The notes below the pieces were generated by a model. That model had not been told where the DNA came from, ran no database searches, and worked only from the letters and a program-made list of their open reading frames with translations. Positions 1,445-59,363 of a stretch of 64,000 nt of DNA are shown piece after piece (the stretch's first letter is position 1; each line of letters begins with the position of its first letter). A program made the position numbers and the translations under genes. The stretch spans positions 310,001-374,000 of the forward strand of contig NZ_UEFQ01000024.1 of NCBI RefSeq assembly GCF_900489465.1, in the 5' to 3' direction. Origin of the DNA: Aequorivita sp. CIP111184 (GTDB lineage Bacteria; Bacteroidota; Bacteroidia; Flavobacteriales; Flavobacteriaceae).

Positions 1445-1456
1445 TGATTTATATCA
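1445..1456 (-). promoter_or_regulatory. Fnr-like operator and promoter of the nos operon
   Basis: TGATTTATATCA is a perfect TGAT-N4-ATCA palindrome centred at 1450.5. On the minus strand a perfect Bacteroidetes -7 element, TAATTTTG (1414-1421), ends 36.5 bp downstream. This puts the site near -41.5 from the expected start of transcription, the class II activator position. Confidence 0.8.
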
Positions 1457-1553
1457 TATATAGGATATTTTTATCTTTTAATCTTTATTTTTAAATAGCT
1501 TGAAACAAACCTTTTACAAACAATAAAAATTTAGTTTTGCTAAAGTGCGATTA

Positions 1554-1565
1554 TGACGAAAATCA
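1554..1565 (+). promoter_or_regulatory. Crp/Fnr-type operator and promoter of the USP gene at 1610
   Basis: TGACGAAAATCA is centred at 1559.5. A perfect -7 element TACTTTTG (1589-1596) ends 36.5 bp downstream on the plus strand. The 5' leader would be only about 9 nt. The site is divergent from the nos operator, so one intergenic gap holds two class II promoters back to back. Confidence 0.78.
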
Positions 1566-1609
1566 TTTTAGAAAATATTTTTAAAAATTACTTTTGAAGA
1601 AATCTTATT

Positions 1610-2434
1610 ATGAAAAATATACTTTTACCGACAGATTTTTCAAAAAGCTCAAAAAATGCCATTCGTTATGCAATGAGGTTTTTTGAAGGGGAAACCTGTA
1701 CGTTTCATATTCTCAATTCGCAAAAGCCCTCGGGCTATATAACTGCAGATGTGCTTTATGGGGCTCCGGGTTCAACAATTTATGATGGTATTTTAAATGA
1801 CAATAAAAAGGAACTAGAGAAAATGGTTCTATTTTGTGAATCGAATTCAACTAAAGAAAATTTCACCTTTGTTCCAAAAATCGACTTTGACAATATTGTA
1901 GATGCCGTAAACCAAGCAATTACAAAGAATAATATTGAACTAATAATTATGGGTACAAATGGGGCTACGGGCGCTGCTGAAACTATTTTTGGAAGCAATA
2001 CGTTAAAAATTATCCGAAATGTAGATTGTCCCGTTGTTGCTGTTCCCCAGAATTACATTTTTGAAAAAGTAAAATCAGTTTTACTATCACTCAATTACCA
2101 ATATGATGTACCAAAAAGATCATTGGATATTGTTGTTGAAATAGTCAAAAAATATGGAGCATCTTTGAAAATTTTAGAAATTGAGGAAGAGAATATAGAA
2201 CTGGTTTCTAAAACAAACTATACTGAAGAAGTTTTTAAAGAAATTGGTTGTGAACATTTTTCTATAAAAAATATTCCTACGTCCATGGCTATTAATGCCT
2301 TTGAGCAGTTAATACCAGTTCAACTTCACGCAATGGTTGTGGAGCATAAAACTTTTTTGGATCGTTTCATTTTCGGTTCAGAAACTTCAAAAATAAGTTA
2401 CGGTTCCAAAATTCCTATTCTAGTACTTCATTAG
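1610..2434 (+). CDS. Tandem-domain universal stress protein
   Basis: 274 residues made of two UspA-like halves. The N-terminal half begins with ILLPTDFSKSS and carries the nucleotide-binding motif G-x2-G-x9-G-S at residues 115-129 (Gly115, Gly118, Gly128, Ser129), followed by a DCPVVAVP strand. The C-terminal half (residues 150-274) keeps the fold pattern but lacks the motif, so ATP probably binds once per chain. It is a soluble cytoplasmic protein; partners are unknown. It has its own class II Crp/Fnr-type promoter and is divergent from the nos operon. Five further USPs of the same architecture lie in this window. Confidence 0.9.
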   Translation: MKNILLPTDFSKSSKNAIRYAMRFFEGETCTFHILNSQKPSGYITADVLYGAPGSTIYDGILNDNKKELEKMVLFCESNSTKENFTFVPKIDFDNIVDAVNQAITKNNIELIIMGTNGATGAAETIFGSNTLKIIRNVDCPVVAVPQNYIFEKVKSVLLSLNYQYDVPKRSLDIVVEIVKKYGASLKILEIEEENIELVSKTNYTEEVFKEIGCEHFSIKNIPTSMAINAFEQLIPVQLHAMVVEHKTFLDRFIFGSETSKISYGSKIPILVLH

Positions 2435-2448
2435 GGAATTTAATAAAG

Positions 2449-3090
2449 TTATTTTACGATCAAAAGTTTATTCTTTTTGAGCGTTCGCACCAGTGTTTTA
2501 ACATAATCACGAATTGTGTTTGCTGCTGCCGGCGGATTTACAATGTCAATTTTTCCACGCCATATCAAATCGCGTTCCTCGCCTGGGCAGAGACAATAAA
2601 GTGAAGTTTCTGTATTGTATACTTCATAATTCTCAGTCTGGTCACTAACATAAACAGGTTTGTTTTCATAATAATAATCGGTAAAGGACTCAAACGATTT
2701 TGTGAAATTCCGGTAGGATTGCACGATGTTAACTTTGTTTTCCTGTCCAGTAACTTTTGAAAACAAAACCGCATCAAAGCCCGCATTTAGAAGTTCTTTT
2801 TCAATATTTTCTAAATTGTCTTCCGACTGATTGTTCTCGCTGAAAGCGCTTCCGAAATAATCAACACTTTTTACCGCAGTAACATTTTCTTCTTTCAAGG
2901 CAATTACCAAACTATATTCAAATTGCCGTTGAAGTTCGCTATCAGGAGTGAGTCCCACCACCAAAACTTTGCTTGCTTGGTAATTTGGAGTTTCGCTGTT
3001 TACATATTCATCTACCAATCGGCTCGTGGAGCAACTGGAAAGCAATAATATAAAAACCGCTATGGAAAGTAATTTTGTTGTAGTATTCAT
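2449..3090 (-). CDS. Predicted lipoprotein of unknown function
   Basis: 213 residues with a clear lipoprotein signal (hydrophobic stretch, then LLLSSCSTS with Cys at about residue 20). The mature domain alternates beta and alpha segments (ASKVLVVGL, QRQFEYSLVIALKE, GFDAVLFSKVTGQ), a pattern seen in bacterial lipoproteins with a Rossmann-like or CsgG/DUF4136-like core, but I cannot name a family. It is convergent with the USP at 1610 (14 bp gap). An Fnr-type palindrome at 3223-3234 and a -7 element TAAGTTTA at 3192-3199 lie upstream, implying a leader near 100 nt and membership in the same regulon. Confidence 0.75.
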   Translation of the reverse strand: MNTTTKLLSIAVFILLLSSCSTSRLVDEYVNSETPNYQASKVLVVGLTPDSELQRQFEYSLVIALKEENVTAVKSVDYFGSAFSENNQSEDNLENIEKELLNAGFDAVLFSKVTGQENKVNIVQSYRNFTKSFESFTDYYYENKPVYVSDQTENYEVYNTETSLYCLCPGEERDLIWRGKIDIVNPPAAANTIRDYVKTLVRTLKKNKLLIVK

Positions 3091-3222
3091 TTTAAAACTA
3101 ATTATTGAACATTATAAATTTCCTTATCGGTTTCAGCCGTAAAGATACGTTTCTACCTTTTAAAATTTTTAAGTACACTTAAAAGATAGCATAAACTTAA
3201 AGTAAGTTATTATCTTCAAAAA

Positions 3223-3234
3223 TGATAATTATCA
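3223..3234 (-). promoter_or_regulatory. Fnr-like operator upstream of the lipoprotein gene at 3090
   Basis: TGATAATTATCA is fully palindromic, centred at 3228.5. On the minus strand TAAGTTTA (3192-3199, one mismatch to TAnnTTTG) ends 36.5 bp downstream. No fitting -7 element is present at that distance on the plus strand, so I assign the site to the leftward gene. Confidence 0.65.
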
Positions 3235-3294
3235 ATCATTTATAACTTATTTAAAGTCTGGTCCTTAAAAAAAATTATATTATCAAAATTTAAG

Positions 3295-3949: not shown

Positions 3950-3951
3950 TT

Positions 3952-10563: not shown

Positions 10564-11312
10564 TGGAAAACGATAAAAAATATCATCTACAAAAAAGTGA
10601 ATCTCCCTTTCTGCAAGGCCCTCGTTCCCGATTTAAGGAATTTATTTTTACGCTGAAAGTTCAGTATAATTTTATAAAAGGCTTTCGGAAAATGCACTTT
10701 ATCGGGCCGTGCGTTACCGTTTTCGGTTCGGCAAGATTTACTCCCGACTCCAAACATTACCAAAATGCTGAAAAAATTGGGGCAGAACTTTCAAAATTAG
10801 GATTTACTATAATGACCGGAGGTGGCCCAGGAATTATGGAAGCAGCAAACAAAGGTGCTTTTGAAGCCGGTGGTTATTCGGTGGGCGTAAATATTATTTT
10901 ACCCTTTGAACAAAAGCCAAACCCATACCTGCACAAATGGATAAACATCCCCTATTTCTTTGTTCGAAAATTTTTAATGATGAAATATTCTTATGCCTAT
11001 GTAGTTATGCCTGGCGGAATGGGCACTTTGGACGAACTATTTGAAGCAATTACCTTAATACAGACAAAACTAATAGAAAATTTTCCTATTGTAATTTTCG
11101 ATTCTGAATATCACAAAGAACTGTGTGAACATATCAAAATAATGGCCGCCAACGAAAGTATTAGTTCCGAGGATATGAAATTGCTTTTTGTAACAGATTC
11201 TGCCGAAGAAGTTGTGGAGCACATAAAAGTGAATGCCATTGAAAAGTTTGGTTTAGTTAAAAAACAATATCAACCCAAATGGTGGTACGGGGAAAACCGA
11301 AGGAAGTTTTAA
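10563..11312 (+). CDS. LOG-family protein (nucleotide phosphoribohydrolase-like)
   Basis: About 249 residues. I chose the ATG at 10563 over a TTG three bases upstream. The LOG signature is PGGMGTLDELFEA (PGGxGTxxE), with a GGGPGIMEAANKGA loop and the catalytic Arg in FVRKFLMMKYSYA. LOG proteins hydrolyse nucleoside 5'-monophosphates, releasing ribose 5-phosphate; in most bacteria the physiological substrate is uncertain. It is the last gene of the exporter operon and overlaps the convergent hydrolase gene by 4 bp. Confidence 0.88.
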   Translation: MENDKKYHLQKSESPFLQGPRSRFKEFIFTLKVQYNFIKGFRKMHFIGPCVTVFGSARFTPDSKHYQNAEKIGAELSKLGFTIMTGGGPGIMEAANKGAFEAGGYSVGVNIILPFEQKPNPYLHKWINIPYFFVRKFLMMKYSYAYVVMPGGMGTLDELFEAITLIQTKLIENFPIVIFDSEYHKELCEHIKIMAANESISSEDMKLLFVTDSAEEVVEHIKVNAIEKFGLVKKQYQPKWWYGENRRKF

Positions 11313-16144: not shown

Positions 16145-16199
16145 AGCTAATAATTTAAAATATATACGTAAAGATACTAATCGACAAATTAAATAAATA

Positions 16200-16211
16200 T
16201 GATAATTATCA
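16200..16211 (-). promoter_or_regulatory. Fnr-like operator of the USP/nuclease operon
   Basis: TGATAATTATCA, identical to the site at 3223-3234, centred at 16205.5. TATCTTTA (16169-16176, one mismatch to TAnnTTTG) ends 36.5 bp downstream on the minus strand. The same -7 octamer is used by the peroxiredoxin promoter. Confidence 0.75.
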
Positions 16212-17413: not shown

Positions 17414-17463
17414 TATATCATAATCTTACCGACAAAATTATCTCTAAGTATCGGTCCAGAAAA

Positions 17464-17475
17464 TGATAAAGGTCA
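17464..17475 (-). promoter_or_regulatory. Crp/Fnr-type operator of the USP gene at 17413
   Basis: TGATAAAGGTCA (TGAT-N4-GTCA), centred at 17469.5. A perfect -7 element TAATTTTG (17433-17440) ends 36.5 bp downstream on the minus strand. Confidence 0.75.
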
Positions 17476-17518: not shown

Positions 17519-18565
17519 TTATTCAATTTCCCGTAAACTTTCCAAATTTATAATATGAATATCTCGTCCTTCTATTTCTATAATACCGTCTTTCTTAAAA
17601 TCGGAAAGAGTTCTGATTAAGCTTTCAGTAGCTATACCAGCGGTGGTGGCTAAATCGTTTCGGGAAATTCTTAAAGGTGCACCCGGTTTTTTACTCATTA
17701 TATCTACAAACTGAAGAATGGTTGCTGCCGTTTTTTTTCGAACTGAACTGTAAGCCATTTTAAGTAATTGTAATTTTATTTCCGAAAGATTATCTGTGAG
17801 AAGGTTTACCAATTCCAATGAAACATCTTGGCTCTTTTTCAAAATATCTTTCACATATTTTTTTGAAACACCAACAATTTCAGTGTCTTCAACCGTTGTT
17901 GCTGTTTCATTATAAGGAATATTATCTTCAAAAGAAGTGAAGCCTAAAAAATCATCTGCTTTGTAAAGCCCTGTAATAAGCTCTTTGGCATTGGCATCCA
18001 TCGTGTGCGTTTTAACCACACCTTTCAAAATAAGAAACATACTATTGGAGTGGTCACCTCTTCGAAAGATTGTTTCTCCCTTTTTATAATTAGCTACCTG
18101 ACCTTCATCACAAAAATAGTTTTTTAATTGATTCAGATTTTGGAGGTTATCATCTTCTTCGTAGGCTTCATCGCTGCTTTTGCGCATCGCCATAATGCTT
18201 GCTTTTGCCAAACGGCTTTCCACGGCACTAAGCAATTCCTGCTCTTCAAACGGTTTGGTTAGATAATCATCTGCACCCATATCCATCCCTTTCCGTATTT
18301 CCTTGTGTTCTGTTTTTGCTGAAAGGAAAATAAAAGGGATATGCTTGGTTTTTTCTTCAGATGCTACTGCTTCCAAAACACCATAACCATCAACTTCTGG
18401 CATCATTATATCGCAAATAATAATATTTGGCTCTTCTTTTTTAGCTTTTTCGATGCCAATTTTGCCGTTTGGCGCTGTAAAAACCTTGAAACCAGAAAGT
18501 TCTAAAAGCTCGGCTGTGTTTTCTCTTAATGCACTATCATCTTCTATGAGAAGTATTGTCTTCAT
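17519..18565 (-). CDS. Hybrid response regulator: receiver domain fused to a Crp/Fnr regulator
   Basis: 348 residues. Residues 1-120 are a receiver domain with the acidic pair Asp9/Asp10, phosphoacceptor Asp52 (CDIMMPEVDG), Ser82 and Lys104 (TKPF). Residues 145-265 form a cyclic-nucleotide-binding-type beta roll (GETIFRRGDHSNSMFLILKG). Residues 275-335 form a winged helix-turn-helix with the recognition helix ATESLIRTL. Glu314 and Arg318 have the spacing of the base-reading Glu/Arg pair of Crp and Fnr. No Fe-S cysteine cluster is present. It is encoded 1 bp after the histidine kinase gene. It is the best candidate to read the TGA(T/C)-N4-(A/G)TCA sites in this window (inference). Confidence 0.9.
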   Translation of the reverse strand: MKTILLIEDDSALRENTAELLELSGFKVFTAPNGKIGIEKAKKEEPNIIICDIMMPEVDGYGVLEAVASEEKTKHIPFIFLSAKTEHKEIRKGMDMGADDYLTKPFEEQELLSAVESRLAKASIMAMRKSSDEAYEEDDNLQNLNQLKNYFCDEGQVANYKKGETIFRRGDHSNSMFLILKGVVKTHTMDANAKELITGLYKADDFLGFTSFEDNIPYNETATTVEDTEIVGVSKKYVKDILKKSQDVSLELVNLLTDNLSEIKLQLLKMAYSSVRKKTAATILQFVDIMSKKPGAPLRISRNDLATTAGIATESLIRTLSDFKKDGIIEIEGRDIHIINLESLREIE

Positions 18566-18566: not shown

Positions 18567-19802
18567 CTATTCTAAATTATTTTTTGTTGGAAAAGAAATT
18601 GTAAACGTGCTACCCTTACCTTCTTCACTTTCAAATTTTATTGTACCACCTAGATTTTCCAAATGGCTCTTAACAATATTAAGACCGATACCAGTTCCTT
18701 GATCCAAAAGTGCGTTCTCGGCCCGAAAATATCTATTAAAAATAAATTTCTGTTCTTTCTGTGGAATACCCATTCCTTCGTCTATAATTTTTATCTCAAC
18801 CGTATCCTTCTTTGCAGTTACCACGACATCAATAATTGTATATTCTGGCGAATATTTTATGGCATTATTTATCAAGTTTGTGAGTGAAAGCTCTAAGATT
18901 TTTTCATCAAAATTTATGGTAATGTCGTCAATATTAATGGGATAGTTAATTTTTTGCCCATCTTTTAAAAGCATATTGGAATTGTAAATTACCTCATTAA
19001 CAACTTTACTTAATGGCACCGTGTCAAACTTATAGTTGGCTTTACCAGATTCTAAACGTTCAATGGAAAGAAAATCATTTAGAATATTATTCAAGTACTT
19101 TACCTTGCTTTGAATAGTTTTTAAATGCTTTTCTCTTTTATCCTGCTGGTCTGTTTCAGTATATTTACCCACCAGTATGGCAGAGGTTAAAATACCACTT
19201 AATGGGGTTTTAAATTCATGGGAAACAAGTGATAAAAATTTAGTCTTCAACTCATTAAGCTCACGCTCCTTCCGAAGCGACTCCTTCATTTTATGTTCCG
19301 CTTCCTTGCGTTTTGCTACCTCTTCCCTTAATATTTCAATAGATTTTTTAAGCTCTTTAGTGCGTTCATCAATTTTTTGCTCCAACGATAAGTTAAGCTC
19401 AATTATTTCCAGTTCCTGATTTTTTCGCACCGAAATGTCCGTTACCAAAGCCATTACATATTTGCTGCCATAAATATCAAAAGGATTTAATCCTGCCTCT
19501 ACGGGAAATACACTACCATCTTTGCGTTGTCCATACAGATCGCGTCCGTGACCCATTTGACGAGGGTCGCTTTTTTCCAAAAATTCGTCAACTTGATGGT
19601 GATGGTTTTCTCTGTAATTTTTAGGTATCAGTATACTCAGGTTTTGGCCTAATAGTTCCTCCCGATTATAGCCAAACATTTTATCTGCCGCATCATTGGA
19701 AGTAACAACTTCCTGATTTTGATTTACAATTACAATACCTTCCGAAATTGCTTCGGAAAGAATTTTGAAAATATTGTGCTTTTCTTCCTTAAAAACCTTC
19801 AT
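18567..19802 (-). CDS. PAS-domain sensor histidine kinase, FixL-like PAS
   Basis: 411 residues with no membrane segment, so cytoplasmic. Residues 10-125 are one PAS domain, 126-185 a coiled coil, then HisKA with the phospho-acceptor His195 (SHEFKTPLSG) and an HATPase domain with NLINNAIKYSPE and GTGIGLNIV. The PAS stretch IPKNYRENHHHQ and MGHGRDLYGQRKDGSVFP resembles the FixL haem pocket. His67 aligns with the FixL haem ligand and Arg87 with the oxygen-sensing Arg. Many non-haem PAS domains share these residues, so haem binding is only a possibility. It is coupled to the hybrid regulator downstream, its obvious partner. Confidence 0.88.
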   Translation of the reverse strand: MKVFKEEKHNIFKILSEAISEGIVIVNQNQEVVTSNDAADKMFGYNREELLGQNLSILIPKNYRENHHHQVDEFLEKSDPRQMGHGRDLYGQRKDGSVFPVEAGLNPFDIYGSKYVMALVTDISVRKNQELEIIELNLSLEQKIDERTKELKKSIEILREEVAKRKEAEHKMKESLRKERELNELKTKFLSLVSHEFKTPLSGILTSAILVGKYTETDQQDKREKHLKTIQSKVKYLNNILNDFLSIERLESGKANYKFDTVPLSKVVNEVIYNSNMLLKDGQKINYPINIDDITINFDEKILELSLTNLINNAIKYSPEYTIIDVVVTAKKDTVEIKIIDEGMGIPQKEQKFIFNRYFRAENALLDQGTGIGLNIVKSHLENLGGTIKFESEEGKGSTFTISFPTKNNLE

Positions 19803-19839
19803 ACTTCAAAAGTAAGGATTTTAAACAGTTTTTGTTAAC

Positions 19840-19851
19840 TGATTAATGTCA
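19840..19851 (+). promoter_or_regulatory. Crp/Fnr-type operator between the kinase and TerB-like genes
   Basis: TGATTAATGTCA, centred at 19845.5. On the plus strand TAGCTTTA (19875-19882) ends 36.5 bp downstream, fitting the TerB-like gene at 19914. On the minus strand a perfect -7 element TACTTTTG (19807-19814) lies 38.5 bp away, close to the kinase start. The site may therefore also allow feedback on the kinase-regulator pair. Confidence 0.6.
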
Positions 19852-19913
19852 TAAAATTTGGGATAAAAACAATTTAGCTTTACACCATTAAAAACTAAAA
19901 TAAACAAACAATT

Positions 19914-24144: not shown

Positions 24145-24201
24145 GATACTCTTAATTGGTTTATATTCTTCAAATATATTCCCTATTAGGCATTTTTAAA
24201 A

Positions 24202-24213
24202 TGACCAAAGTCA
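24202..24213 (-). promoter_or_regulatory. Crp/Fnr-type operator of hpf-usp
   Basis: TGACCAAAGTCA (TGAC-N4-GTCA), centred at 24207.5. A perfect -7 element TATATTTG (24171-24178) ends 36.5 bp downstream on the minus strand. Confidence 0.78.
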
Positions 24214-30646: not shown

Positions 30647-30695
30647 TGCTATATTAAATTTGATGCAAACATACGCCAGAAAACAAGCTTGGTCA

Positions 30696-30709
30696 GTAAC
30701 TAATGTTAC
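30696..30709 (-). promoter_or_regulatory. GTAAC-class operator of the RND efflux operon
   Basis: GTAACTAATGTTAC, centred at 30702.5. A perfect -7 element TATGTTTG (30666-30673) ends 36.5 bp downstream on the minus strand. The predicted leader is about 15 nt before the ATG at 30646. Confidence 0.78.
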
Positions 30710-30717
30710 CAAACAAA

Positions 30718-30740
30718 AAAGCACCTGTTGGAGGTGCTTT
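30718..30740 (-). terminator. Intrinsic terminator after the cytochrome b561 gene
   Basis: The perfect stem AAAGCACCT / AGGTGCTTT with a 5-nt loop; on the minus strand it is followed by a T run. It isolates the DUF302-b561 unit from the RND promoter just downstream. Confidence 0.82.
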
Positions 30741-31799: not shown

Positions 31800-31867
31800 G
31801 ATTCTAGCTTATTTAATTTACTTAAACATTCATAAACAAATGTATGATTGAAAAATGGGAGAATATG

Positions 31868-31879
31868 TGACAAATATCA
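31868..31879 (-). promoter_or_regulatory. Crp/Fnr-type operator of the DUF302-b561 unit
   Basis: TGACAAATATCA, centred at 31873.5. A perfect -7 element TACATTTG (31837-31844) ends 36.5 bp downstream on the minus strand. Confidence 0.78.
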
Positions 31880-31934: not shown

Positions 31935-31948
31935 GTAACCTTTGTTAC
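31935..31948 (+). promoter_or_regulatory. GTAAC-class operator of the sulfur-related operon
   Basis: GTAACCTTTGTTAC, centred at 31941.5. A perfect -7 element TAAATTTG (31970-31977) ends 35.5 bp downstream on the plus strand, one base closer than elsewhere. The start codon at 31984 would give almost no leader. Confidence 0.75.
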
Positions 31949-31983
31949 ATTCAAAAAAAACAAAAATCATAAATTTGCATTTA

Positions 31984-43913: not shown

Positions 43914-43964
43914 TTCTCAACGATTTTAAATGTCTAAATTACTTCAGATAAATGAACTCTAAAA

Positions 43965-43976
43965 TGATATTAATCA
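43965..43976 (-). promoter_or_regulatory. Proximal Fnr-like operator of the SQR gene
   Basis: TGATATTAATCA, a perfect TGAT-N4-ATCA site centred at 43970.5. TAATTTAG (43934-43941, one mismatch to TAnnTTTG) ends 36.5 bp downstream on the minus strand. Confidence 0.68.
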
Positions 43977-44032
43977 TATAGCTGTGAGATTATTAGACCT
44001 GTCAAAAATCTAATTTTTTATTATGAAGTCCA

Positions 44033-44046
44033 GTAACTTTTGTTAC
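44033..44046 (-). promoter_or_regulatory. Distal GTAAC-class operator of the SQR gene
   Basis: GTAACTTTTGTTAC, centred at 44039.5. GATTTTTG (44003-44010, one mismatch to TAnnTTTG) ends 36.5 bp downstream on the minus strand. With the TGAT site at 43965 it gives two stacked class II promoters for one gene. Confidence 0.65.
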
Positions 44047-46806: not shown

Positions 46807-46866
46807 TGGTCAGTAAATTAATGGATAAAAACTAAGCAAATATAATCAGCAGTTGCGCTTGTTGCT

Positions 46867-46880
46867 GTATCATTTGTTAC
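46867..46880 (-). promoter_or_regulatory. GTAAC-class operator of cydAB
   Basis: GTATCATTTGTTAC, one mismatch from a perfect GTAAC-N4-GTTAC palindrome, centred at 46873.5. A perfect -7 element TATATTTG (46837-46844) ends 36.5 bp downstream on the minus strand. Confidence 0.72.
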
Positions 46881-46966
46881 CTAATTAATAAATTAGTGGA
46901 TCTTTATTTTAATTTTGTTTTAGTAATACTTATTTCAAAAAATTAATAGTACAATTTTAATAGATT

Positions 46967-48961: not shown

Positions 48962-49040
48962 ATCTATATTTTTTTATCAATTTATAAAAGTCTTTTAAGA
49001 CTAAAAAATGAATTGTAGTATTATAACCAAGTTTTTTAAA

Positions 49041-49622
49041 CTATTTCTTACTAAGTTTAAAAAACAATTCGTTTCCTTCCCTTTGTGAAATTGAATTGTA
49101 GGCAGTTTCCATTTTTTCAATTTTGAAATTTTCTTCAAAAAGTGAAATATATTCTTCTTTATTTCCACCAAAGGGTGGTTTATCATTATTTAGAGGAATA
49201 TTGAAAAGTAATCCCGCAAGCTTTCCTTTTGGTTTAAGTAATTGGTGCATTTTTGAAACATAATGTTTCCGAAAACCGGGATCGAGTGCGCAAAAAAAAG
49301 TTTGCTCAAAAATAAGGTCGAAGCTATCGTCAAGTTCAAAAAAATCTGAATGTATCAAATTTTTCTCTGGAAAAAATGGAACTCGTTCCGATAAATTCTT
49401 TAGTGGAATCGTAGAAATATCAATAACAAAAACGTTCTCAAATCCATTGTTAAAAAGATATTCCGCTTCATAAGAATTACCGCCTCCGGGAATCAATATT
49501 TTTAAACTTTTATCTGAAAGTTGATCAATATATTCTTTTAAAGGCGTTGAAACATAGCCAATATCCCATCCCGTTTCCCCACTAATGTATTTGTGATTCC
49601 AAAAAGTTTCGTAAAAATTCAT
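49041..49622 (-). CDS. TPMT-like SAM-dependent methyltransferase
   Basis: 193 residues. It begins NFYETFWNHKYISGETGWDIGYVS, the usual thiopurine S-methyltransferase opening. The SAM-binding loop is ILIPGGGNSYEAEYLFNNG, followed by FVIDISTIPLKNL, then FDLIFEQTFFCALDP. Bacterial relatives methylate sulfur, selenium or tellurium compounds. It lies 3 bp after the cytochrome gene and belongs to the peroxiredoxin operon, so a sulfide- or thiol-related substrate is likely by context. Confidence 0.85.
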   Translation of the reverse strand: MNFYETFWNHKYISGETGWDIGYVSTPLKEYIDQLSDKSLKILIPGGGNSYEAEYLFNNGFENVFVIDISTIPLKNLSERVPFFPEKNLIHSDFFELDDSFDLIFEQTFFCALDPGFRKHYVSKMHQLLKPKGKLAGLLFNIPLNNDKPPFGGNKEEYISLFEENFKIEKMETAYNSISQREGNELFFKLSKK

Positions 49623-49625
49623 AGG

Positions 49626-50648
49626 TTAATTTTCAAAGCTTATACTCCAAATTCCGCGAACCTGATTTTCATTATAACCAGTAGCCATGTCGGTTGGGTA
49701 AAGCTTCTTAATTTTATTCAAGGTAAGTATTTCTAATTCCTTACCTGGTGTTCCATGACATTTTAAACACATGGAGTTGGTAACGATTGGATAATAAAAT
49801 TCAGTTTCATTTCCCATTTGAACCGTAATAGGCTTTACTTCATCACCCGCAGCTATTTGTTTTTTGAAATTTTCTAGGTATTGCAATTCCGCAGCATTCG
49901 CCTTATTTTTTGGGTTCCTAGGTTTGTCAGTAACTCGCTTTATATTTGCTTTATAAAGGGTAGCCATACTATCAGTTATTGGCAACGCTTGTACATTACA
50001 GAAATCAAGTGCAGCTATTACTCCATTTTTTTTGATTTGCCCCATAAGGTTTTTACCAAGTTCAGCCTTGGTAATCAGCGCCATTTCCATCCCGCGTTCT
50101 TCCACAGAAAGTTGTTTGTTGGTGTTAGCTTGGTTTTTATTCATTCCCATACCTCTTCCACGACCCATTTTTCCTTTCATCATGGGGCGGTCGCCGTGCA
50201 TTTTGTTATAATGCTCTCCAAACCAAACAGGCTGTTCAATTTCATCGTCGAACATATAATTAGCAATTTGCCGGATTGTTTTCTCTGGAAAAAATTGATA
50301 AGGCATCAATCCAAATTTTTTAATCGCGCCAGGCATTTTAGATTTTTCTTCAGAAGGTTGTTTGGACCACTCAACCATCGCATTCACAAATTCTTCCTTA
50401 GAAGTGTCCTCAGAAATATAATGCATCTTTACAGCTACAAAGGGCGGGGCAATCATATTTTCTTCTGAAGCTTTTGGATTGTGACAGGCGTAACAATTAT
50501 TTTCCATTAGTTTTTTCCCCGGATGCTCTTGGGGAGTGGCCATAGCCAAATCCCCAGAAACATCTTGAATACTGGAATAAGAATCTTTGGGTTTTGTGTT
50601 GCAAGCAAATAAAATGCTTCCCAATACAACTATAGCAAATAATTTCAT
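49626..50648 (-). CDS. Two-haem cytochrome c lipoprotein with DUF3365 domain
   Basis: 340 residues. A lipoprotein signal (VVLGSILFACNTK) is followed by a cytochrome c domain with NNCYACHNP. Next is a Met/Gly-rich loop with MKGKMGRGRGMGMNKN, then a DUF3365 (Tll0287-like) domain at about residues 190-340 with a second haem motif MCLKCHGTPG. The Tll0287 fold resembles PAS-type sensors, so a periplasmic redox sensor or electron carrier is possible. It lies 19 bp after the peroxiredoxin and 3 bp before the methyltransferase. Confidence 0.85.
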   Translation of the reverse strand: MKLFAIVVLGSILFACNTKPKDSYSSIQDVSGDLAMATPQEHPGKKLMENNCYACHNPKASEENMIAPPFVAVKMHYISEDTSKEEFVNAMVEWSKQPSEEKSKMPGAIKKFGLMPYQFFPEKTIRQIANYMFDDEIEQPVWFGEHYNKMHGDRPMMKGKMGRGRGMGMNKNQANTNKQLSVEERGMEMALITKAELGKNLMGQIKKNGVIAALDFCNVQALPITDSMATLYKANIKRVTDKPRNPKNKANAAELQYLENFKKQIAAGDEVKPITVQMGNETEFYYPIVTNSMCLKCHGTPGKELEILTLNKIKKLYPTDMATGYNENQVRGIWSISFEN

Positions 50649-50667
50649 CAGTATTCTTTTTTAAAAT

Positions 50668-51327
50668 TTAAAGGGATTTTTTAGCCAAATAAAAATCAAC
50701 TTTCTCTATAGAATCATCATTTAAACGCTCTTCCATTTCAGCCAATGTTTTTGGTGGTGGAATGATTACTTTATCACCTTTCTTCCAATCCAAAGGCATT
50801 GCAACACTATATTTATCTGATGTTTGTAAGGCATAGAGTGCTCTTAAAATTTCATCCATATTTCTACCCACATTTAAAGGATAATACATAATCAACCTGA
50901 TTTTTTTTGCGGGATCTATGAAGAAAACAGCACGCACCGCAGCAGTTTCACTTTCGTTGGGTTGCAACATTCCGTATAGTTTGGATACTTTCATATCTAT
51001 ATCTGCGATAATGGGGAAGTCAAAATAAACTCCCGTTTTTTCGCGAACGTTATTCACCCAGCCTAAATGCGCGTGAATACTATCTATACTCAATCCTAAA
51101 AGTTCTGTATTTAGGGCATCAAATTCTGGTTTGCGAATTGCGAAACCGCTCATCTCCGTAGTACAAACGGGAGTAAAATCGGCAGGATGCGAAAACATTA
51201 CGATCCATTTATCTTTCGCAAATTCTGAAAGTTTAATATCGCCCTTAGTCGTTTTTGCGGTAAAATCTGGTGCGATATCACCAATTCTAGGCATTGAAGT
51301 AACTTCTTTTAATTCTGAATTTTCCAT
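50668..51327 (-). CDS. 1-Cys peroxiredoxin (Prx6 type)
   Basis: 219 residues. The peroxidatic Cys55 lies in HPADFTPVCTTEM, the Prx6-type motif. I find no second Cys, so a resolving thiol must come from a partner. The C-terminal arm (LPAD-like MPLDWKKGDKVIIPPPKT) is typical of Prx6. It reduces peroxides in the cytoplasm. First gene of a leftward operon with the two-haem cytochrome, methyltransferase and MBL-rhodanese genes. It is controlled by a perfect GTAAC-class site just upstream. Confidence 0.93.
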   Translation of the reverse strand: MENSELKEVTSMPRIGDIAPDFTAKTTKGDIKLSEFAKDKWIVMFSHPADFTPVCTTEMSGFAIRKPEFDALNTELLGLSIDSIHAHLGWVNNVREKTGVYFDFPIIADIDMKVSKLYGMLQPNESETAAVRAVFFIDPAKKIRLIMYYPLNVGRNMDEILRALYALQTSDKYSVAMPLDWKKGDKVIIPPPKTLAEMEERLNDDSIEKVDFYLAKKSL

Positions 51328-51383
51328 TTGAGTCTTCTTTAATAATTTAAGTATAAAGATACTCTAAGAAGATACTTTTGGCA

Positions 51384-51397
51384 GTAACAAAAGTTAC
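51384..51397 (-). promoter_or_regulatory. GTAAC-class operator of the peroxiredoxin operon
   Basis: GTAACAAAAGTTAC, centred at 51390.5. TATCTTTA (51354-51361, one mismatch to TAnnTTTG) ends 36.5 bp downstream on the minus strand. The site lies 27 bp from the end of the Crp/Fnr gene, its likely reader. Confidence 0.75.
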
Positions 51398-51423
51398 AAT
51401 TAAAAAAAAATTATCCCCAGAAG

Positions 51424-52056
51424 TTAAAGCGAAATAATCTGGATGCTATTTCTAAAAAGTTTAATTTTTCCAAGGGATTCCAATTTTTTCAGCAAACGCG
51501 ATACCACCACTCGTGAAGTGTGCAGTTCATAAGCTATTTCTTGATGTGTAGAATTAATTATGGAATCATTAGTGATCTTTTGTTTATTCTGAAGGTATTT
51601 CACCAAGCGCTCATCCATATTATAGAATGCAATACTATCAATGGTTTCAAGCATTTCAGTTAAGCGGGCGTGGTAACTTTGAAACACAAAATTGCGCCAG
51701 CTTTTATATTTCCCTGTCCATTCTTCCATTTTTTGAATCGGGATCATAATTATTGTGGTATCAAGCTCTGCGATTGCGCGAATTTCACTTCTGGTCTGTC
51801 CCAAACAGCAGGTTAATGTCATTGCACACGTGTCGCCACGTTCCAAAAAATAAAGCAATAGCTCGTCGCCGTTCTCATCTTCCCTCAAAATTTTTATTGC
51901 GCCAGAAATTAGCAATGGCATAGACCGTACATAATCGCCAATTTCTATAAGTTTTTCACCTTCCTTTATATTCTTCAGCGTTCCCACTTCCAAGATTTCA
52001 TCGATCAATGCATCTTCAAATATATTGGCAAAGTTTTCTTTTAAACTATTGAGCAT
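51424..52056 (-). CDS. Crp/Fnr-family transcriptional regulator with a three-cysteine sensor region
   Basis: 210 residues. Residues 10-125 form the effector-binding beta roll, and the C-terminus a winged helix-turn-helix (HQEIAYELHTSRVVVSRLLKK). The recognition helix has Arg182 and Arg187 but Val183 at the place of the usual Glu, so it should not read TGA half-sites in the standard way. Cys77, Cys83 and Cys84 (DTCAMTLTCCLG) sit in the sensor domain, suggesting thiol-based sensing. It is the best candidate for the GTAAC-class sites. It ends the Mla-type operon and stands next to the peroxiredoxin operon. Regulator and ligand assignments are inference. Confidence 0.9.
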   Translation of the reverse strand: MLNSLKENFANIFEDALIDEILEVGTLKNIKEGEKLIEIGDYVRSMPLLISGAIKILREDENGDELLLYFLERGDTCAMTLTCCLGQTRSEIRAIAELDTTIIMIPIQKMEEWTGKYKSWRNFVFQSYHARLTEMLETIDSIAFYNMDERLVKYLQNKQKITNDSIINSTHQEIAYELHTSRVVVSRLLKKLESLGKIKLFRNSIQIISL

Positions 52057-53851: not shown

Positions 53852-54628
53852 TTAAAAAAATATATCGGTTACAAAAACGGCAATAAAATCAATCACAAAC
53901 AAAAGCATCGAGATATAAACCACAGCGGAATTTGATGCCTCTCCAACGCCAACAGTTCCTTTAGAACAATAATAGCCTTTGTAACACCCCACCAAACCAA
54001 TCGCAAAACCAAAGAAAACAGATTTTACTGTTGCAGGAATTATATCGCTAAATTTTAAGGCATCAAAAACTTGGTTGAAGTAAAGCAAAAAGGAAACATC
54101 GCCCTTTAAATTTTCTATCAAAGCTGAACCTAAAAGAGCAATCGCATCACCCATAATTATCAACAAAGGCAACATCAAGGTAGTAGCCACAATTCGGGTA
54201 ACCACCAAATATTTAAAAGGGTTGGTGCCAGAAACCTCCATGGCGTCTATCTGTTCCGTAACCCTCATAGAACCCAGCTCCGCACCAATTCCAGAACCAA
54301 TTCGCCCAGCACAGATAAGGGCAATGACTACAGGACCAATTTCCCGAACAATAGAAAGACTAACCATAGAGGCCATCCAAGATTGTGCGCCAAATTGTAA
54401 TAAAGTAGGTCGCGACTGTAGTGTAAACACGAGCCCCAAAATAAACCCCGTAACCCCAACTAATAGCAGTGAACGGTTGCCCATATTGTAACATTGGCGA
54501 AGCAATTCCTTAAATTCAAAAGGCGGACTGAACACTTCCCTAAAAAAGCGTCCGGCGAATAAAGTCATATCACCGATTTCGGCAAAGAATGATTTTGTGC
54601 GGGTTAATATGGTGTTTGAACTATTCAT
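53852..54628 (-). CDS. MlaE-like lipid ABC permease
   Basis: 258 residues from the ATG at 54628 (MNSSNTILTR). The frame extends to 54670, but that would include the -7 element, so the shorter start is preferred. About five membrane helices follow, with the MlaE region EIGPVVIALICAGRIGSGIGAELGSM and SVFFGFAIGLVGCYKGYYC. First gene of the lipid transport operon that ends with the Crp/Fnr gene. Its promoter has a TGAC/ATCA site. Confidence 0.9.
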   Translation of the reverse strand: MNSSNTILTRTKSFFAEIGDMTLFAGRFFREVFSPPFEFKELLRQCYNMGNRSLLLVGVTGFILGLVFTLQSRPTLLQFGAQSWMASMVSLSIVREIGPVVIALICAGRIGSGIGAELGSMRVTEQIDAMEVSGTNPFKYLVVTRIVATTLMLPLLIIMGDAIALLGSALIENLKGDVSFLLYFNQVFDALKFSDIIPATVKSVFFGFAIGLVGCYKGYYCSKGTVGVGEASNSAVVYISMLLFVIDFIAVFVTDIFF

Positions 54629-54676
54629 AAAGGAAAAGGAAAGGCCAAATATAATGTTGACTAGCATCATTTAATA

Positions 54677-54688
54677 TGACATAAATCA
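54677..54688 (-). promoter_or_regulatory. Crp/Fnr-type operator of the Mla-type/Crp operon
   Basis: TGACATAAATCA, centred at 54682.5. A perfect -7 element TATATTTG (54646-54653) ends 36.5 bp downstream on the minus strand. It drives a transcript that carries the Crp/Fnr gene at its end. Confidence 0.78.
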
Positions 54689-54751: not shown

Positions 54752-54763
54752 TGATCAATGTCA
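54752..54763 (+). promoter_or_regulatory. Crp/Fnr-type operator of the L,D-transpeptidase gene
   Basis: TGATCAATGTCA, centred at 54757.5. A perfect -7 element TACGTTTG (54787-54794) ends 36.5 bp downstream on the plus strand. The leader would be near 95 nt. It lies 75 bp from the divergent operator at 54677. Confidence 0.78.
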
Positions 54764-54894
54764 TACCATTTTGTTAATTAGATTCCTACGTTTGATCCAT
54801 ATTAAAATGGACATTTGCATAGCGCAGAATTCTATTTTCAATCTTTCATAAAACCAAATTACAGCGCTGAAATAGGCTTTAAAAGATAACATAA

Positions 54895-55926
54895 ATGAAA
54901 AATATTTTATTGGTAGTTATAATCTTCACCTGTATAAGTTGCGTAAATAAGCATCAAGTTAATAGCAAAGAAAAAAATACAAATAACGTAACTGAGGTAG
55001 TATTAGATACTTTAGATCAAGAAATAACTACAATTCCTATTGAAATAGTAGTTAATAAAGATATTCCTATTCGTTCTTACTTTAAATGGATGGACAGTAT
55101 AGTTGTAGAACATAACCAAACTCACAATTATCTTATTGATGAGTATATTATCGTACAAAATAACAAGTGGATTATGGACACGCTTGCACATACAGATTAT
55201 TACTATTTAATGGATAAGGGAATTTTCAACGAAGATTCCCAAGCATTGAATGCACTTTATGAAGGACAAACTCTACTAATTCCAGATTCTTTACAAACTC
55301 AAAATATTAGAAAAGTTATGGAAAACACCTATCTAGATATAAATATTCCGGAATTTAAACTTCGTATTATAGAAAATGGAAAGGTGATAAAAAAGTTTCC
55401 TGTTAGAGTCGGCCAAAATAACAAGCGTTACTTAGAAATGGCAAATGGCGTTGTAGATATGCGTACAAAACCTGGCATAGGAAAAATCGTTAGAGTTAAT
55501 AAAAAACCGTGGTTCATTAATCCGAAGGACAACCATAGGTATTACAAAACAAATCGAGATGATAAAAAGGTTACTGCCCTTCCTGCCATTCCTTGGATAG
55601 AGCCAGAAATTGACGGTCGCCGTTTAGGGCAACTTATTCACCCTACAACCAATTTAACTACGTTGAGTAAAGCATACTCCAATGGTTGTATCGGCTTACG
55701 GGAATCTGATGCCTGGATTGTGTATTACTATGCTCCATTAGGAACAAAAGTGGTAATTAGGTACGATCTATCAGGGAAAGATAATGAAGGGCAAGATGTT
55801 CAATTTGAAAATATTTATCCTGGTTTTGAAAGTGAAACGTATAGAAAAGAAAGTATTGAAGCTGCATTTAAAGCTATTGATGGAAAACCTATAAACGTTT
55901 GCGAATGTGGAGACTTAAGCAACTAA
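54895..55926 (+). CDS. L,D-transpeptidase (YkuD domain) lipoprotein
   Basis: 343 residues. A lipoprotein signal (VIIFTCISCVNK) is followed by a linker and the YkuD domain. Its catalytic part reads LIHPTTN ... YSNGCIGLRESDAW (His and Cys in the HxT...SxGCIxL pattern). Such enzymes make 3-3 peptidoglycan cross-links or attach proteins to the wall, typical of stationary-phase cells. It has its own Crp/Fnr-type promoter and is divergent from the Mla-type operon, pairing envelope repair with lipid transport. Confidence 0.88.
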   Translation: MKNILLVVIIFTCISCVNKHQVNSKEKNTNNVTEVVLDTLDQEITTIPIEIVVNKDIPIRSYFKWMDSIVVEHNQTHNYLIDEYIIVQNNKWIMDTLAHTDYYYLMDKGIFNEDSQALNALYEGQTLLIPDSLQTQNIRKVMENTYLDINIPEFKLRIIENGKVIKKFPVRVGQNNKRYLEMANGVVDMRTKPGIGKIVRVNKKPWFINPKDNHRYYKTNRDDKKVTALPAIPWIEPEIDGRRLGQLIHPTTNLTTLSKAYSNGCIGLRESDAWIVYYYAPLGTKVVIRYDLSGKDNEGQDVQFENIYPGFESETYRKESIEAAFKAIDGKPINVCECGDLSN

Positions 55927-56098: not shown

Positions 56099-56677
56099 TT
56101 AAAAATCCCAAGCCAACCCTATTCCAAAAGAGATATAATTTAGTTTTATATCTGTTGAAATACTTTCAATTTCAACATCCGTTGCAAGTGATCGGTACCG
56201 AAGCATCGGTTTTAAAGATAGATTTGGAGCAAACTCATAATTAACACCCGCTGCCACTTGCCAACCAAAGCCGTAACCCGTGTCCACAGAAATATCACCA
56301 GCGTTACTTTCCAATTTAATGTGATTATAGATGGCACCAGTACTTCCTACATAAGAAAATGCGGAAGTACCTATTTGACGAATAATTTCGAAACCAAACG
56401 TATAGCCCGTTTCCTCAAAGGTAAAATCTTCATTAAAATTACTATCCGAACCTTTAAATTGGTTCAGCCCCCAGCCTGCGTATACAGAAAAGTGAGGCAT
56501 TAATTTGTAAGCGCCAGTTAATTCAAATCCATACCCAATTTCTGCATCTATATTTCCAACATCACTAGTAGGAAAATTGAGGCCGGGCCTAAACTCCACA
56601 GACCATTTTTCTTGTGCTTGCAAAGTAAATGAAACTAACAGTATTGCTATAGCCAGTAAAAAACCAGACTTTTTCAT
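56099..56677 (-). CDS. Outer-membrane beta-barrel protein
   Basis: 192 residues with a signal peptide (LLAIAILLVSFTLQAQ). It is an eight-stranded barrel type: alternating hydrophobic strands (WSVEFRPGLNFPTSD, YGFELTGAYKLMPHFSVYAGW, YGFGWQVAAGVNYEFAPNLSL) and the C-terminal aromatic Phe in LAWDF needed for BAM recognition. Similar in size to OmpW/OmpX-like porins; substrate unknown. It has a Crp/Fnr-type promoter with a perfect -7 element. Confidence 0.88.
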   Translation of the reverse strand: MKKSGFLLAIAILLVSFTLQAQEKWSVEFRPGLNFPTSDVGNIDAEIGYGFELTGAYKLMPHFSVYAGWGLNQFKGSDSNFNEDFTFEETGYTFGFEIIRQIGTSAFSYVGSTGAIYNHIKLESNAGDISVDTGYGFGWQVAAGVNYEFAPNLSLKPMLRYRSLATDVEIESISTDIKLNYISFGIGLAWDF

Positions 56678-56737
56678 AATATTTCAATTTGAGTTAAGGG
56701 GGTATGCAAAAATAACTTGAAAAAACAATCTTCACTA

Positions 56738-56749
56738 TGACGAAAATCA
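56738..56749 (-). promoter_or_regulatory. Crp/Fnr-type operator of the outer-membrane barrel gene
   Basis: TGACGAAAATCA, the same twelve bases as the USP site at 1554, centred at 56743.5. A perfect -7 element TATTTTTG (56707-56714) ends 36.5 bp downstream on the minus strand. Confidence 0.78.
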
Positions 56750-56785
56750 GTACAAACATCTTAAAATGAGACCTATTAAAAAAAG

Positions 56786-59287
56786 TTACCTCAATTTTTT
56801 ACGTTTCCCCCATTTCACGATTTCATACCATAATGTGCTTAACACTCCAATAGCAATACTAATAAAAATCTGGTTTAGTCCAAGTCTCTCAAAATCAAAA
56901 AATTTAGTAAAGAGCGGTACAAAAAGTAACGATAAAGTGATGCCAATGGTGATGCCAATGATAATCGGCACCAACTTATTTTTATATTTAAAAGTGGAGA
57001 AAATAGAATAGATAAAAGAGCGATTTACAAAAGTTAAAACAATGTTTGCTGTTATGAGCGTGGTAAAGACCATCGTTCTTGTTATCGCTTCATTATAACC
57101 ATCATTTACTGCCAATTGATAAACAGTGAGCACACCAACAGTAATAGCCAAACCTTGGATTATACTTGTAAAAAGTTCGCTCCAATTGAAAAAAGTACTG
57201 GAGAAAGGTCTCGGCTTTTGAAGCATGGAATCCTTTTCCAGCGGTTCATTTTCATAAACTATCGAGCAGGTTGGCCCCATTATTAATTCTAATAAGATCA
57301 CGTGAACAGGCGTGAAAATATTGGGGTAAACCCAGCCTAACACCAAAGGGATAAAAACCGTAAGAATGATGGGTATATGAATTGAAATGATATACTGAAT
57401 TGCTTTTTTAAGATTTGAATAGATTTTTCTACCCATCGCCACAGCATCTACCATTTTAGAAAGATCATCATCTACCAAAACCAGTGAAGCGGATTGCTTT
57501 GCTATTTCAGTTCCCTTCTTCCCCATTGCAATTCCAATATTGGCAGCTTTCAATGCAGGGCCATCATTAACGCCATCGCCTGTCATTGCCACAATATGTC
57601 CCTGCGCCTTGAGGGCATTGATTATCTTAAGTTTTGCTTCGGGAAACATTCGGGCAAAGATGTTTTTTTCTGAAGTGATTTTTTCAAATTCCGCAGGGTT
57701 TAAAGCGAAAAGCTCATCGCCAGAAACAACATCTTCAGAACCTCTAAAATTTACTTTTTTTGCAATGGCGGCAGTAGTTTCAGCAATATCTCCAGTAATA
57801 ATTTTTACAGCAATTCCCGCTTTGTAGAAATCCTGAAATACTTTTGAAATATTTTCCTTTGGAGGATCATAAAAAGCTACTAAACCCTTAAATTCAAAAG
57901 GAAAGTCCTGCTGTTTTTTCGGCCAATCCGTTCCTTCAAAATTTGAAATCCCAACTCCCAAAACACGATATCCTTCCTCTGCCAAAAAGGTAATTTTCTG
58001 TTTTAACCTCTCCTTTTGCTCGCCATTCAAATTTGAAACTGCTATTAAAGCCTCGGGCGCACCTTTAGCAGCGATGATTCTATTACCTTGGTCATTTTCA
58101 AAAATGTGGGTCATCATTGGGGGTTTTCCTCCCAACGGATATTCGTGCACCATTTTAAAATTGGGCCTTTGGTCATTTTTAACAAAGGAACTGTAAAACC
58201 CATGCAGCGATTGTTCCATCGTATCAAAAGGAATAGGTTCGCTGGCCCACATTGCCGTAGTTATAAGTTCTTTTTCAACTTCGGAAAGCATTTCTTCAAC
58301 CGAAGTGATGTTATCGGTTTCCAACGTATAAATCTTATCCAAACGCATTTTATTCTCAGTAATCGTACCTGTTTTGTCTACACAAATCACAGTAGCGCTA
58401 CCCAAGGATTCAACGGTTTTCATTTGTTTTACAATAACACCTAAGTTCATAAGCCGCCAAGCACCAATGGCCATAAACGTGGTAAAGGCAACGGGAATCT
58501 CCTCTGGCAAAACGCTCATTGCAAGTGTAAGCGCTTTCAAAAGACTCTCTAAAAGGCTGCCCGTATTATAATAATTAATTCCCCAAACCAATAGAAAAAT
58601 AATCGCTCCCGCGATTACCATCTTTTTTACAAAATTGTTTATTTGGAGTTCAAGCGTAGATTTTTCAGAAGAAATTTCTTCAATGCTTTTACCAATTTTC
58701 CCAACCTTTGTTTGATTACCAACCGCAAATATTTCAGCAATGGCAAGTCCTCCTCCAACTTGGGTACCCATATAAATTTTGTTGTCTTCTGAAGAGGCAT
58801 CTTTTTCTACTGAAAAAGATTCTCCCGTCAAGATGGATTCATTTACCGAAAAGTCATTGGAATGAACAATGGTGCCATCTGCTACAATGGTGGATCCCTC
58901 CTCTACCATCAAAAAATCGCCAACTACCACTTCTTGGCTCTTTATTTCAACAACTGTCCCGTTCCGGATTACCTTACAATGGGGCTGTGAAAGTTCCTTA
59001 AGCTTATCTAGTGCATCGTGGGTTTTAGCATCTTGATAGAGAGAAATTGCAGCTACCAAAAGAATGGCTGCTGCGAGAAAAATTCCGTCCCCTGTATTAC
59101 CCGTGAAAAAATATAAAGTCGCCGCAACTAGCAATAAAATTACCATTGGTTCTTTCAACAGTCCTTTTATTGCTTCAAAAAATGGATTCTTTTTTTTGGA
59201 TTCTAAAATGTTTAGCCCAAATTTTTCACGAGAAGCCAAAACTTCAGAATCCGACAGACCCTGAATATCAAAATTTTCTACAGCCAT
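56786..59287 (-). CDS. Cation-transporting P-type ATPase (P2A-like)
   Basis: 833 residues. Landmarks are TGES (residues 154-157), the phosphorylation motif DKTGTIT at Asp304, the nucleotide-domain KGAPEA and the hinge MTGDGVNDGPALKAA, plus eight to ten membrane helices. Helix 4 reads VLPEEIPVAF (residues 259-268) rather than the PEGL of Ca2+ pumps, so the ion is uncertain. I call it a P2-type cation exporter. It follows an Fnr-type site with a weaker -7 element. Confidence 0.85.
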   Translation of the reverse strand: MAVENFDIQGLSDSEVLASREKFGLNILESKKKNPFFEAIKGLLKEPMVILLLVAATLYFFTGNTGDGIFLAAAILLVAAISLYQDAKTHDALDKLKELSQPHCKVIRNGTVVEIKSQEVVVGDFLMVEEGSTIVADGTIVHSNDFSVNESILTGESFSVEKDASSEDNKIYMGTQVGGGLAIAEIFAVGNQTKVGKIGKSIEEISSEKSTLELQINNFVKKMVIAGAIIFLLVWGINYYNTGSLLESLLKALTLAMSVLPEEIPVAFTTFMAIGAWRLMNLGVIVKQMKTVESLGSATVICVDKTGTITENKMRLDKIYTLETDNITSVEEMLSEVEKELITTAMWASEPIPFDTMEQSLHGFYSSFVKNDQRPNFKMVHEYPLGGKPPMMTHIFENDQGNRIIAAKGAPEALIAVSNLNGEQKERLKQKITFLAEEGYRVLGVGISNFEGTDWPKKQQDFPFEFKGLVAFYDPPKENISKVFQDFYKAGIAVKIITGDIAETTAAIAKKVNFRGSEDVVSGDELFALNPAEFEKITSEKNIFARMFPEAKLKIINALKAQGHIVAMTGDGVNDGPALKAANIGIAMGKKGTEIAKQSASLVLVDDDLSKMVDAVAMGRKIYSNLKKAIQYIISIHIPIILTVFIPLVLGWVYPNIFTPVHVILLELIMGPTCSIVYENEPLEKDSMLQKPRPFSSTFFNWSELFTSIIQGLAITVGVLTVYQLAVNDGYNEAITRTMVFTTLITANIVLTFVNRSFIYSIFSTFKYKNKLVPIIIGITIGITLSLLFVPLFTKFFDFERLGLNQIFISIAIGVLSTLWYEIVKWGKRKKLR

Positions 59288-59351
59288 ATATTTAAGATAA
59301 TAGCATTAATTAATTGCCTGTTAAAATACTTATCCCATTTTTCAATTTATA

Positions 59352-59363
59352 TGATAAATATCA
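59352..59363 (-). promoter_or_regulatory. Fnr-like operator upstream of the P-type ATPase gene
   Basis: TGATAAATATCA, a perfect palindrome class member centred at 59357.5. At 36.5 bp downstream on the minus strand the octamer is TATTTTAA (59321-59328), two mismatches from TAnnTTTG. On the plus strand no -7 element sits at that spacing, so the leftward gene is preferred. Confidence 0.55.

Follow-up and report, generated by a model that had tools for sequence, protein, structure and literature searches.

What organizes transcription in a region in which promoter after promoter carries a Crp/Fnr-type palindrome at the same distance from its −7 element? We addressed this question in the marine flavobacterium Aequorivita sp. 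CIP111184 (genome, 3.54 Mb), in a window of 64,000 nucleotides, the whole stretch of DNA analysed (bases 310001-374000 of contig C16). Two operators recur there: operator A (TGAYnnnnRTCA) and operator B (TAACnnnnGTTA), each placed upstream of TAnnTTTG, the −7 element of Bacteroidota. Spacing is given as a gap, with gap 23 corresponding to 36.5 bp from the palindrome centre to the end of the −7 octamer, gap 22 to 35.5 bp and gap 25 to 38.5 bp. An earlier note on this DNA had counted 18 such promoters, and our reconstruction returned identical counts: 13 promoters with A and 5 with B, of which 17 stand at 36.5 bp (13 A and 4 B, the latter including 46879− with one palindrome mismatch) and one, a B site, at 35.5 bp. 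The octamer is a perfect TAnnTTTG at 10 of the 17 and also at the 35.5-bp site. Some further gap-23 rows, weak or intragenic, stay outside the 18 (A at 1445+, 12474+, 18099+ and 42301−; B at 55419+).

The fixed-spacing pattern is real and far above chance. Shuffled sequence and altered gaps, which the earlier note had named as the controls that could overturn it, give far fewer pairs than the real DNA. At gap 23, exact A sites with exact octamers form 8 pairs; 31 other gaps average 0.03 (maximum, 1), and 300 dinucleotide shuffles of the window average 0.003 (maximum, 1). With up to one −7 mismatch there are 12 A pairs (shuffle mean, 0.067; maximum, 1) and 4 B pairs, including the left-out 55419+ (shuffle mean, 0.017; maximum, 2); an A pattern with the ending TAnnTTTR has 11 matches in the window and 0 in 100 shuffles. 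Across the whole genome, 18 of the 58 matches of the looser TGAN6TCA fall at gap 23, and 28 other gaps hold a mean of 1.43 each (maximum, 5). What speaks for chance or base composition is that lone TAnnTTTG octamers are not enriched in the window (91 found versus 97.7 expected, an uninformative count), that loose pairs are enriched modestly and that single weak sites could have arisen by chance. The case is indeed weaker at up to two mismatches in all: gap 23 then has 18 rows, whereas other gaps average 5.5 and reach 11; because the signal fades there, the weakest sites depend on conservation. The shuffles, the other gaps and conservation nevertheless oppose chance and already refute it for the exact pairs, and we give this explanation practically no weight.

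Conservation was scored promoter by promoter at orthologous genes, drawing on as many as seven further Aequorivita and on the stretches fetched from their genomes. Arms and spacing are kept at these promoters, whereas the inner bases vary. The A-site promoters, at gap 23, are:

1414..1456, minus strand: A site with TAATTTTG, before a cytochrome-c-like gene (883-1416); exact at gap 23 in 7/7 other Aequorivita.
1554..1596, plus strand: A site with TACTTTTG, before a universal stress protein (USP) gene (1610-2434); gap 23 in 6/7, two with one palindrome mismatch.
3192..3234, minus strand: A site with TAAGTTTA, before the open reading frame 2449-3090; identical −7 element at gap 23 in 5/7.
16169..16211, minus strand: A site with TATCTTTA, before a USP gene (15299-16144); gap 23 in 7/7, with the −7 element ending in A.
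17433..17475, minus strand: A site with TAATTTTG, before a USP gene (16568-17413); exact in 7/7.
19840..19882, plus strand: A site with TAGCTTTA, before the open reading frame 19914-20318; gap 23 with one −7 mismatch in 6/7, the seventh not scorable.
24171..24213, minus strand: A site with TATATTTG, before a hibernation-factor-like (S30AE) gene (23845-24144); gap 23 in 7/7, one with a palindrome mismatch.
31837..31879, minus strand: A site with TACATTTG, before a DUF302 gene (31410-31799).
43934..43976, minus strand: A site with TAATTTAG, before an FAD protein gene (42456-43913); gap 23 in 3/5 relatives with the gene in the fetched stretches.
54646..54688, minus strand: A site with TATATTTG, before mlaE (53852-54670); A site at gap 23 in 5/5.
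54752..54794, plus strand: A site with TACGTTTG, before an L,D-transpeptidase-like gene (54895-55926); present in 2/2 relatives.
56707..56749, minus strand: A site with TATTTTTG, before an outer-membrane beta-barrel gene (56099-56677); gap 23 in 6/6, two with one −7 mismatch.
59321..59363, minus strand: A site with TATTTTAA (two mismatches), before a cation ATPase gene (56786-59287); palindrome at gap 23 in 6/6, with 1-2 mismatches in the −7 element.

The real start of mlaE must lie downstream of the annotated start at 54670. At the DUF302 promoter, one operator seems to have been exchanged for the other: it is A in the window genome and in G004 but B-like (TAATCTTTGTTA), also at gap 23, in five further Aequorivita, while G269 yielded none.

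The earlier note had called the regulon regional, which describes its density and not its limits. The genome contains 16 exact A pairs, of which 8 are in the window (0.29 expected), 2 within 35 kb upstream and 6 elsewhere; the regulon is therefore dense in the window, yet extends beyond it. Upstream of the window, at a distance of 20-32 kb, A sites precede hemN and ccoN, and both genes encode full-length proteins that exceed their NCBIfam cut-offs. The remaining exact pairs outside the window precede genes for a sulfide-quinone reductase, a zinc alcohol dehydrogenase, a pyridine-nucleotide oxidoreductase, an outer-membrane efflux protein and two small unknown proteins. Given targets such as hemN, ccoN, USP genes and the hibernation factor, the rule of site, 23 bp and TAnnTTTG would mark an FNR/FixK-type regulon for low-oxygen respiration and survival.

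Which protein reads the A sites? The genome has four HTH_Crp matches, three of them above the family cut-off. We propose as the activator in Aequorivita a fusion protein encoded within the window, REC-CRP, whose gene adjoins that of a sensor kinase:

17519..18565, minus strand: REC-CRP (P0001), a response regulator with receiver, cNMP-binding-like and HTH_Crp_2 domains (Pfam).
18567..19802, minus strand: histidine kinase with a PAS domain, the likely cognate sensor; the PAS domain is closest in the PDB to the heme-PAS oxygen sensors DosP and FixL.
19807..19851, minus strand: the 19840 palindrome read toward the kinase gene, at gap 25 (38.5 bp) to TACTTTTG; gap 25 in 5/7 and gap 26 in 2/7 other Aequorivita.

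The receiver aspartate, Asp52, is found in 80 of 81 aligned REC-CRP homologues (the remaining row has a gap), and phosphorylation is therefore the likely switch. Residues E314, I317 and R318 of the recognition helix occur in 81/81 homologues, a set whose filter itself required TES. The only cysteines of REC-CRP are Cys51 and Cys152, so that those of an FNR-type N-terminal cluster are missing, and the protein scores 72.9 bits against the NCBIfam CRP model (cut-off, 266). The kinase gene lies directly upstream of the REC-CRP gene (within 160 bp) in 78 of 80 loci, or in 60/80 by a stricter criterion, a shortfall due to the start codons chosen. Among the PDB sequences matched by the kinase PAS domain, 13 of 14 are DosP or FixL, and His67, kept in 73/79 sequences, aligns with a DosP histidine that we take, from DosP and FixL, to be a heme ligand. 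These resemblances suggest that the kinase probably senses oxygen or a related gas via heme; oxygen as the signal also fits the ccoN, hemN, USP and hibernation-factor targets. The kinase gene may be autoregulated through its own conserved site, which comes in addition to the 18 promoters. The −7 octamer of this site ends 4 bases before the annotated start codon, and the kinase mRNA may thus be nearly leaderless.

The spacing, whose conservation in related genomes the earlier note had proposed to test, recurs across the family. Among the best 80 loci for a relative of REC-CRP (12 Aequorivita and 68 other flavobacteria), A pairs at gap 23 number 27 in 12/12 Aequorivita loci and 137 in 56/68 of the others. 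Other gaps from 5 to 40 (without 22, 24 and 25) have means of 0.09 and 0.66 and maxima of 2 and 6, respectively; gaps 22, 24 and 25 hold 0, 0 and 10 pairs in the Aequorivita loci and 2, 6 and 4 in the others. Four control palindromes gave no pair at gap 23 in these 80 loci. In the non-Aequorivita loci, a T follows the promoter-side half-site in 134/137 sites, a preference that the far side does not mirror. Gap 23 is the dominant distance in the window, in the genome, in the genus (for B) and in the REC-CRP loci of the family. In the window genome (L007, 4047-4842), a gene for an iron-sulfur repair di-iron protein (TIGR03652, above cut-off) has an A site at gap 24.

Other Flavobacteriaceae encode a second candidate reader, a single-domain, cysteine-rich FNR-like protein (MSKCEQC...; 15 proteins) with an N-terminal CxxC and more cysteines, which make an iron-sulfur type likely. 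Its recognition helix, GTATESxIR in the 15 proteins listed, nearly matches GIATESLIR of REC-CRP. Around FNR-like genes in another genus (11 loci), 15 of 18 A sites precede ccoN (11) or hemN (4); without G172 and G192, which have Crp hits of 360-371 amino acids and may carry REC-CRP, the count is 13 of 15 (ccoN, 9; hemN, 4). In two compared loci of that genus, the FNR-like gene neighbours the cco-cluster gene for a copper ATPase, and hemN is not far away. The window genome has hemN, the cco genes and the ATPase gene in the same order, and no FNR-like gene at that place.

Either regulator accompanies A sites, as indicated by class means in 149 genomes of the family (kinship ignored): 12.5 A pairs with both proteins (46 genomes), 6.4 with FNR only (51), 9.1 with REC-CRP only (31) and 0.81 with neither (21), where FNR presence means a best E-value <1e-49 and G286, G294 and G312, with weaker hits in frames of 233-244 amino acids, are classed as lacking it. 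The reversed pattern gives class means of 0.0-0.23. The FNR-like query found no FNR in 28 Aequorivita genomes. Its best hit was a REC-CRP-type protein (open frame of 346-385 amino acids) in 27 of them, which have 5-17 A pairs each; the remaining genome, G267, gave no hit and has 0 exact A pairs. Neither REC-CRP, the kinase nor USP genes were found in the 80 kb fetched from G267, the only part queried with REC-CRP itself.

G267 retains three exact B pairs at gap 23. Since it keeps B without A, the two kinds of site appear to be lost independently, with B accompanying a second regulator, P0003. This protein and the B-site promoters of the window are:

30666..30708, minus strand: B site with TATGTTTG, before an outer-membrane efflux gene (29342-30724); closely similar promoters are among the matches in other Aequorivita.
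31936..31977, plus strand: B site with TAAATTTG at gap 22 (35.5 bp), at the open reading frame 31942-32334.
44003..44045, minus strand: B site with GATTTTTG, the second site before 42456-43913; a B site is at about the same place in G272.
46837..46879, minus strand: B site (one mismatch) with TATATTTG, before a cytochrome bd gene (45472-46806).
51354..51396, minus strand: B site with TATCTTTA, before a peroxiredoxin gene (50668-51327), just 3′ of the P0003 gene; in 3/3 relatives with the gene in the fetched stretches.
51424..52056, minus strand: P0003, a Crp-type regulator (Pfam) with a C-x5-CC motif and a recognition helix, SRVVVSR, without Glu.

With the gap left free from 19 to 27, 57 of 88 B-pair matches in the 28 Aequorivita genomes fall at gap 23, in 27/28 genomes. 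The real start of the efflux gene must lie downstream of the annotated start at 30724, which is so far upstream that the ortholog comparison missed its B site. That comparison does not allow conservation to be judged for 31936+ and 46879−, and conservation is uneven among the weaker sites; the stretches fetched from the seven relatives contain no orthologue of the cytochrome bd gene (45472-46806). P0003 keeps its C-x5-CC motif in 7/7 orthologues looked at. In G267, two B sites flank the P0003 orthologue (57% identity), near TauE-type and MBL-rhodanese genes, and a B site with a palindrome mismatch precedes a cytochrome bd gene. We propose P0003 as the activator at B sites. The genes around P0003 and its B sites encode cytochrome bd, a peroxiredoxin and an MBL-rhodanese protein (46837-52056 in the window), and in G267 also TauE; the group may serve a sulfide or persulfide response.

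Class II operators are centred near −41.5, which is where the distance of 36.5 bp from palindrome centre to octamer end would place these operators. From the sites, their spacing, their conservation and their co-occurrence with regulators, all computed directly, we infer that two Crp/Fnr-type activators use the sites as class II operators, a model that we regard as probable. Each dimer would bind its palindrome at about −41.5, adjoining RNA polymerase at TAnnTTTG. On the A side, the PAS kinase (18567-19802) would detect oxygen or a related gas through heme and phosphorylate the adjacent REC-CRP (17519-18565), switching it on at TGAYnnnnRTCA followed by T, an operator of the flavobacterial low-oxygen FNR/FixK type; on the B side, TAACnnnnGTTA would belong to the regulator at 51424-52056. 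Low-oxygen switching would probably be the work of a kinase-driven regulator standing in for the iron-sulfur type of many relatives. We also lean, with less assurance, towards an operator-preserving swap, in which Flavobacteriaceae share one low-oxygen regulon and geometry, whose reader is FNR in some genera, REC-CRP with a FixL-like kinase in others and both in many, and Aequorivita has lost FNR and rests on the fusion alone. The geometry suggests activation, as the earlier note had argued in proposing Crp/Fnr-type class II control, but the protein that likely acts at A is a response regulator of the receiver-CRP type, neither a classical FNR nor a CRP. The earlier note's further suggestion of one or two global activators agrees with the presence in the window of likely regulators for both operators, although the regulon reaches beyond the region.

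Several points weigh against this model or limit it. The A site of the kinase gene departs from the spacing rule, at 38.5-39.5 bp; a search for a missing or weakened −33 element is uninformative, TTTG at −33 being rare in both promoter sets; and in the kinase PAS domain Arg87 is present in only 55/79 sequences and His67 in 73/79. The class comparison ignores phylogeny, the genomes with neither regulator are smaller, averaging 2.55 Mb (the nine that reach 2.6 Mb or more contain 0-5 A pairs), and some assignments as lacking REC-CRP may be wrong, because at most 14 candidates per genome were scored, at E ≤ 1e-60. G267 is a single genome, queried with REC-CRP over 80 kb only, and it also lacks L002, a third Crp-type protein (195-211 amino acids, contig C7), and hence cannot separate L002 from REC-CRP. 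The A sites might instead be read by L002, with REC-CRP incidental, or by both: the L002 helix, RVETVIR, keeps Glu and Arg, and orthologues (51-56% identity) occur in G343 (2 A pairs) and G385 (5), which the criteria used place among the genomes with neither regulator. The L002 contig, however, has none of the 16 exact A pairs of the genome, and in 56/68 non-Aequorivita loci the REC-CRP gene has A sites no more than 10 kb away, which leaves a role for L002 unlikely.

Some FNR and CRP proteins repress, and the palindromes could be operators at which such proteins block promoters; the kinase-gene site at 38.5 bp would suit this function. Repression requires no single spacing, however; the concentration of 8 exact pairs at a single distance (other gaps average 0.03) and the promoter-side T in 134/137 sites make it improbable. 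Carbon control by cAMP-CRP or a MalR-like protein has a slightly smaller claim still. In its favour, a metatranscriptome study predicts MalR-like carbon sensing for a Crp/Fnr protein of Flavobacteriales (PMC8510549). The targets, however, include hemN, ccoN, USP and hibernation-factor genes, the A regulator is a response regulator encoded next to a PAS kinase and the alternative regulator is cysteine-rich.

FixLJ-FixK and FNR regulons are already well known, and the system resembles them in part. As at class II promoters of Escherichia coli CRP, where the activator is centred about 41.5 bp before the start, the distance is kept, but the −7 element differs and there is no sign of cAMP control. 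Regulons of proteobacterial FNR and ANR share the TGA-type palindrome, the class II position, hemN and ccoN targets and universal stress proteins; by contrast, in the regulator of Aequorivita a receiver is present and the N-terminal cysteines are absent, and the promoters carry TAnnTTTG. FixJ has a LuxR/NarL-type output, unlike REC-CRP, whose output is cNMP_binding plus HTH_Crp_2. With the rhizobial FixLJ-FixK cascade the system has in common a FixL-related PAS kinase and a Crp-type output, and cco genes are among rhizobial FixK targets (PMC4999443). It differs in joining receiver and Crp-type output in one protein, with no separate FixJ/FixK step, and in its Bacteroidota −7 promoters. The flavobacterial FNR-like protein is closest, with the same operator and spacing, ccoN and hemN targets and a near-identical recognition helix, but it is a one-component, likely iron-sulfur protein found in none of the 28 Aequorivita.

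A literature search that covered few subscription papers found, among the titles and abstracts listed, no description of such a regulon in flavobacteria, of the fixed rule on Bacteroidota promoters, of the one-step REC-CRP version or of the FNR exchange on the same operators. Transcription activation is little mapped in Bacteroidota, a phylum abundant in sea, soil and gut. The rule (site, 23 bp, TAnnTTTG) is testable and predicts low-oxygen promoters from sequence family-wide, with two candidate activators. If the swap model is true, the fusion merges the FixL-FixJ-FixK cascade into one step. The same operators appear to be read by sensors of two kinds, a natural case in which one can follow how a regulon evolves while its sensor is exchanged.

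Within the USP cluster of the window, 11309-12679 encodes a beta-CASP nuclease that scores 399 bits to a type VII CRISPR Cas14 model, below the membership cut-off of 800. Beside USP genes, 12681-13529 encodes an ATP-cone domain fused to a weak restriction-endonuclease-like match.

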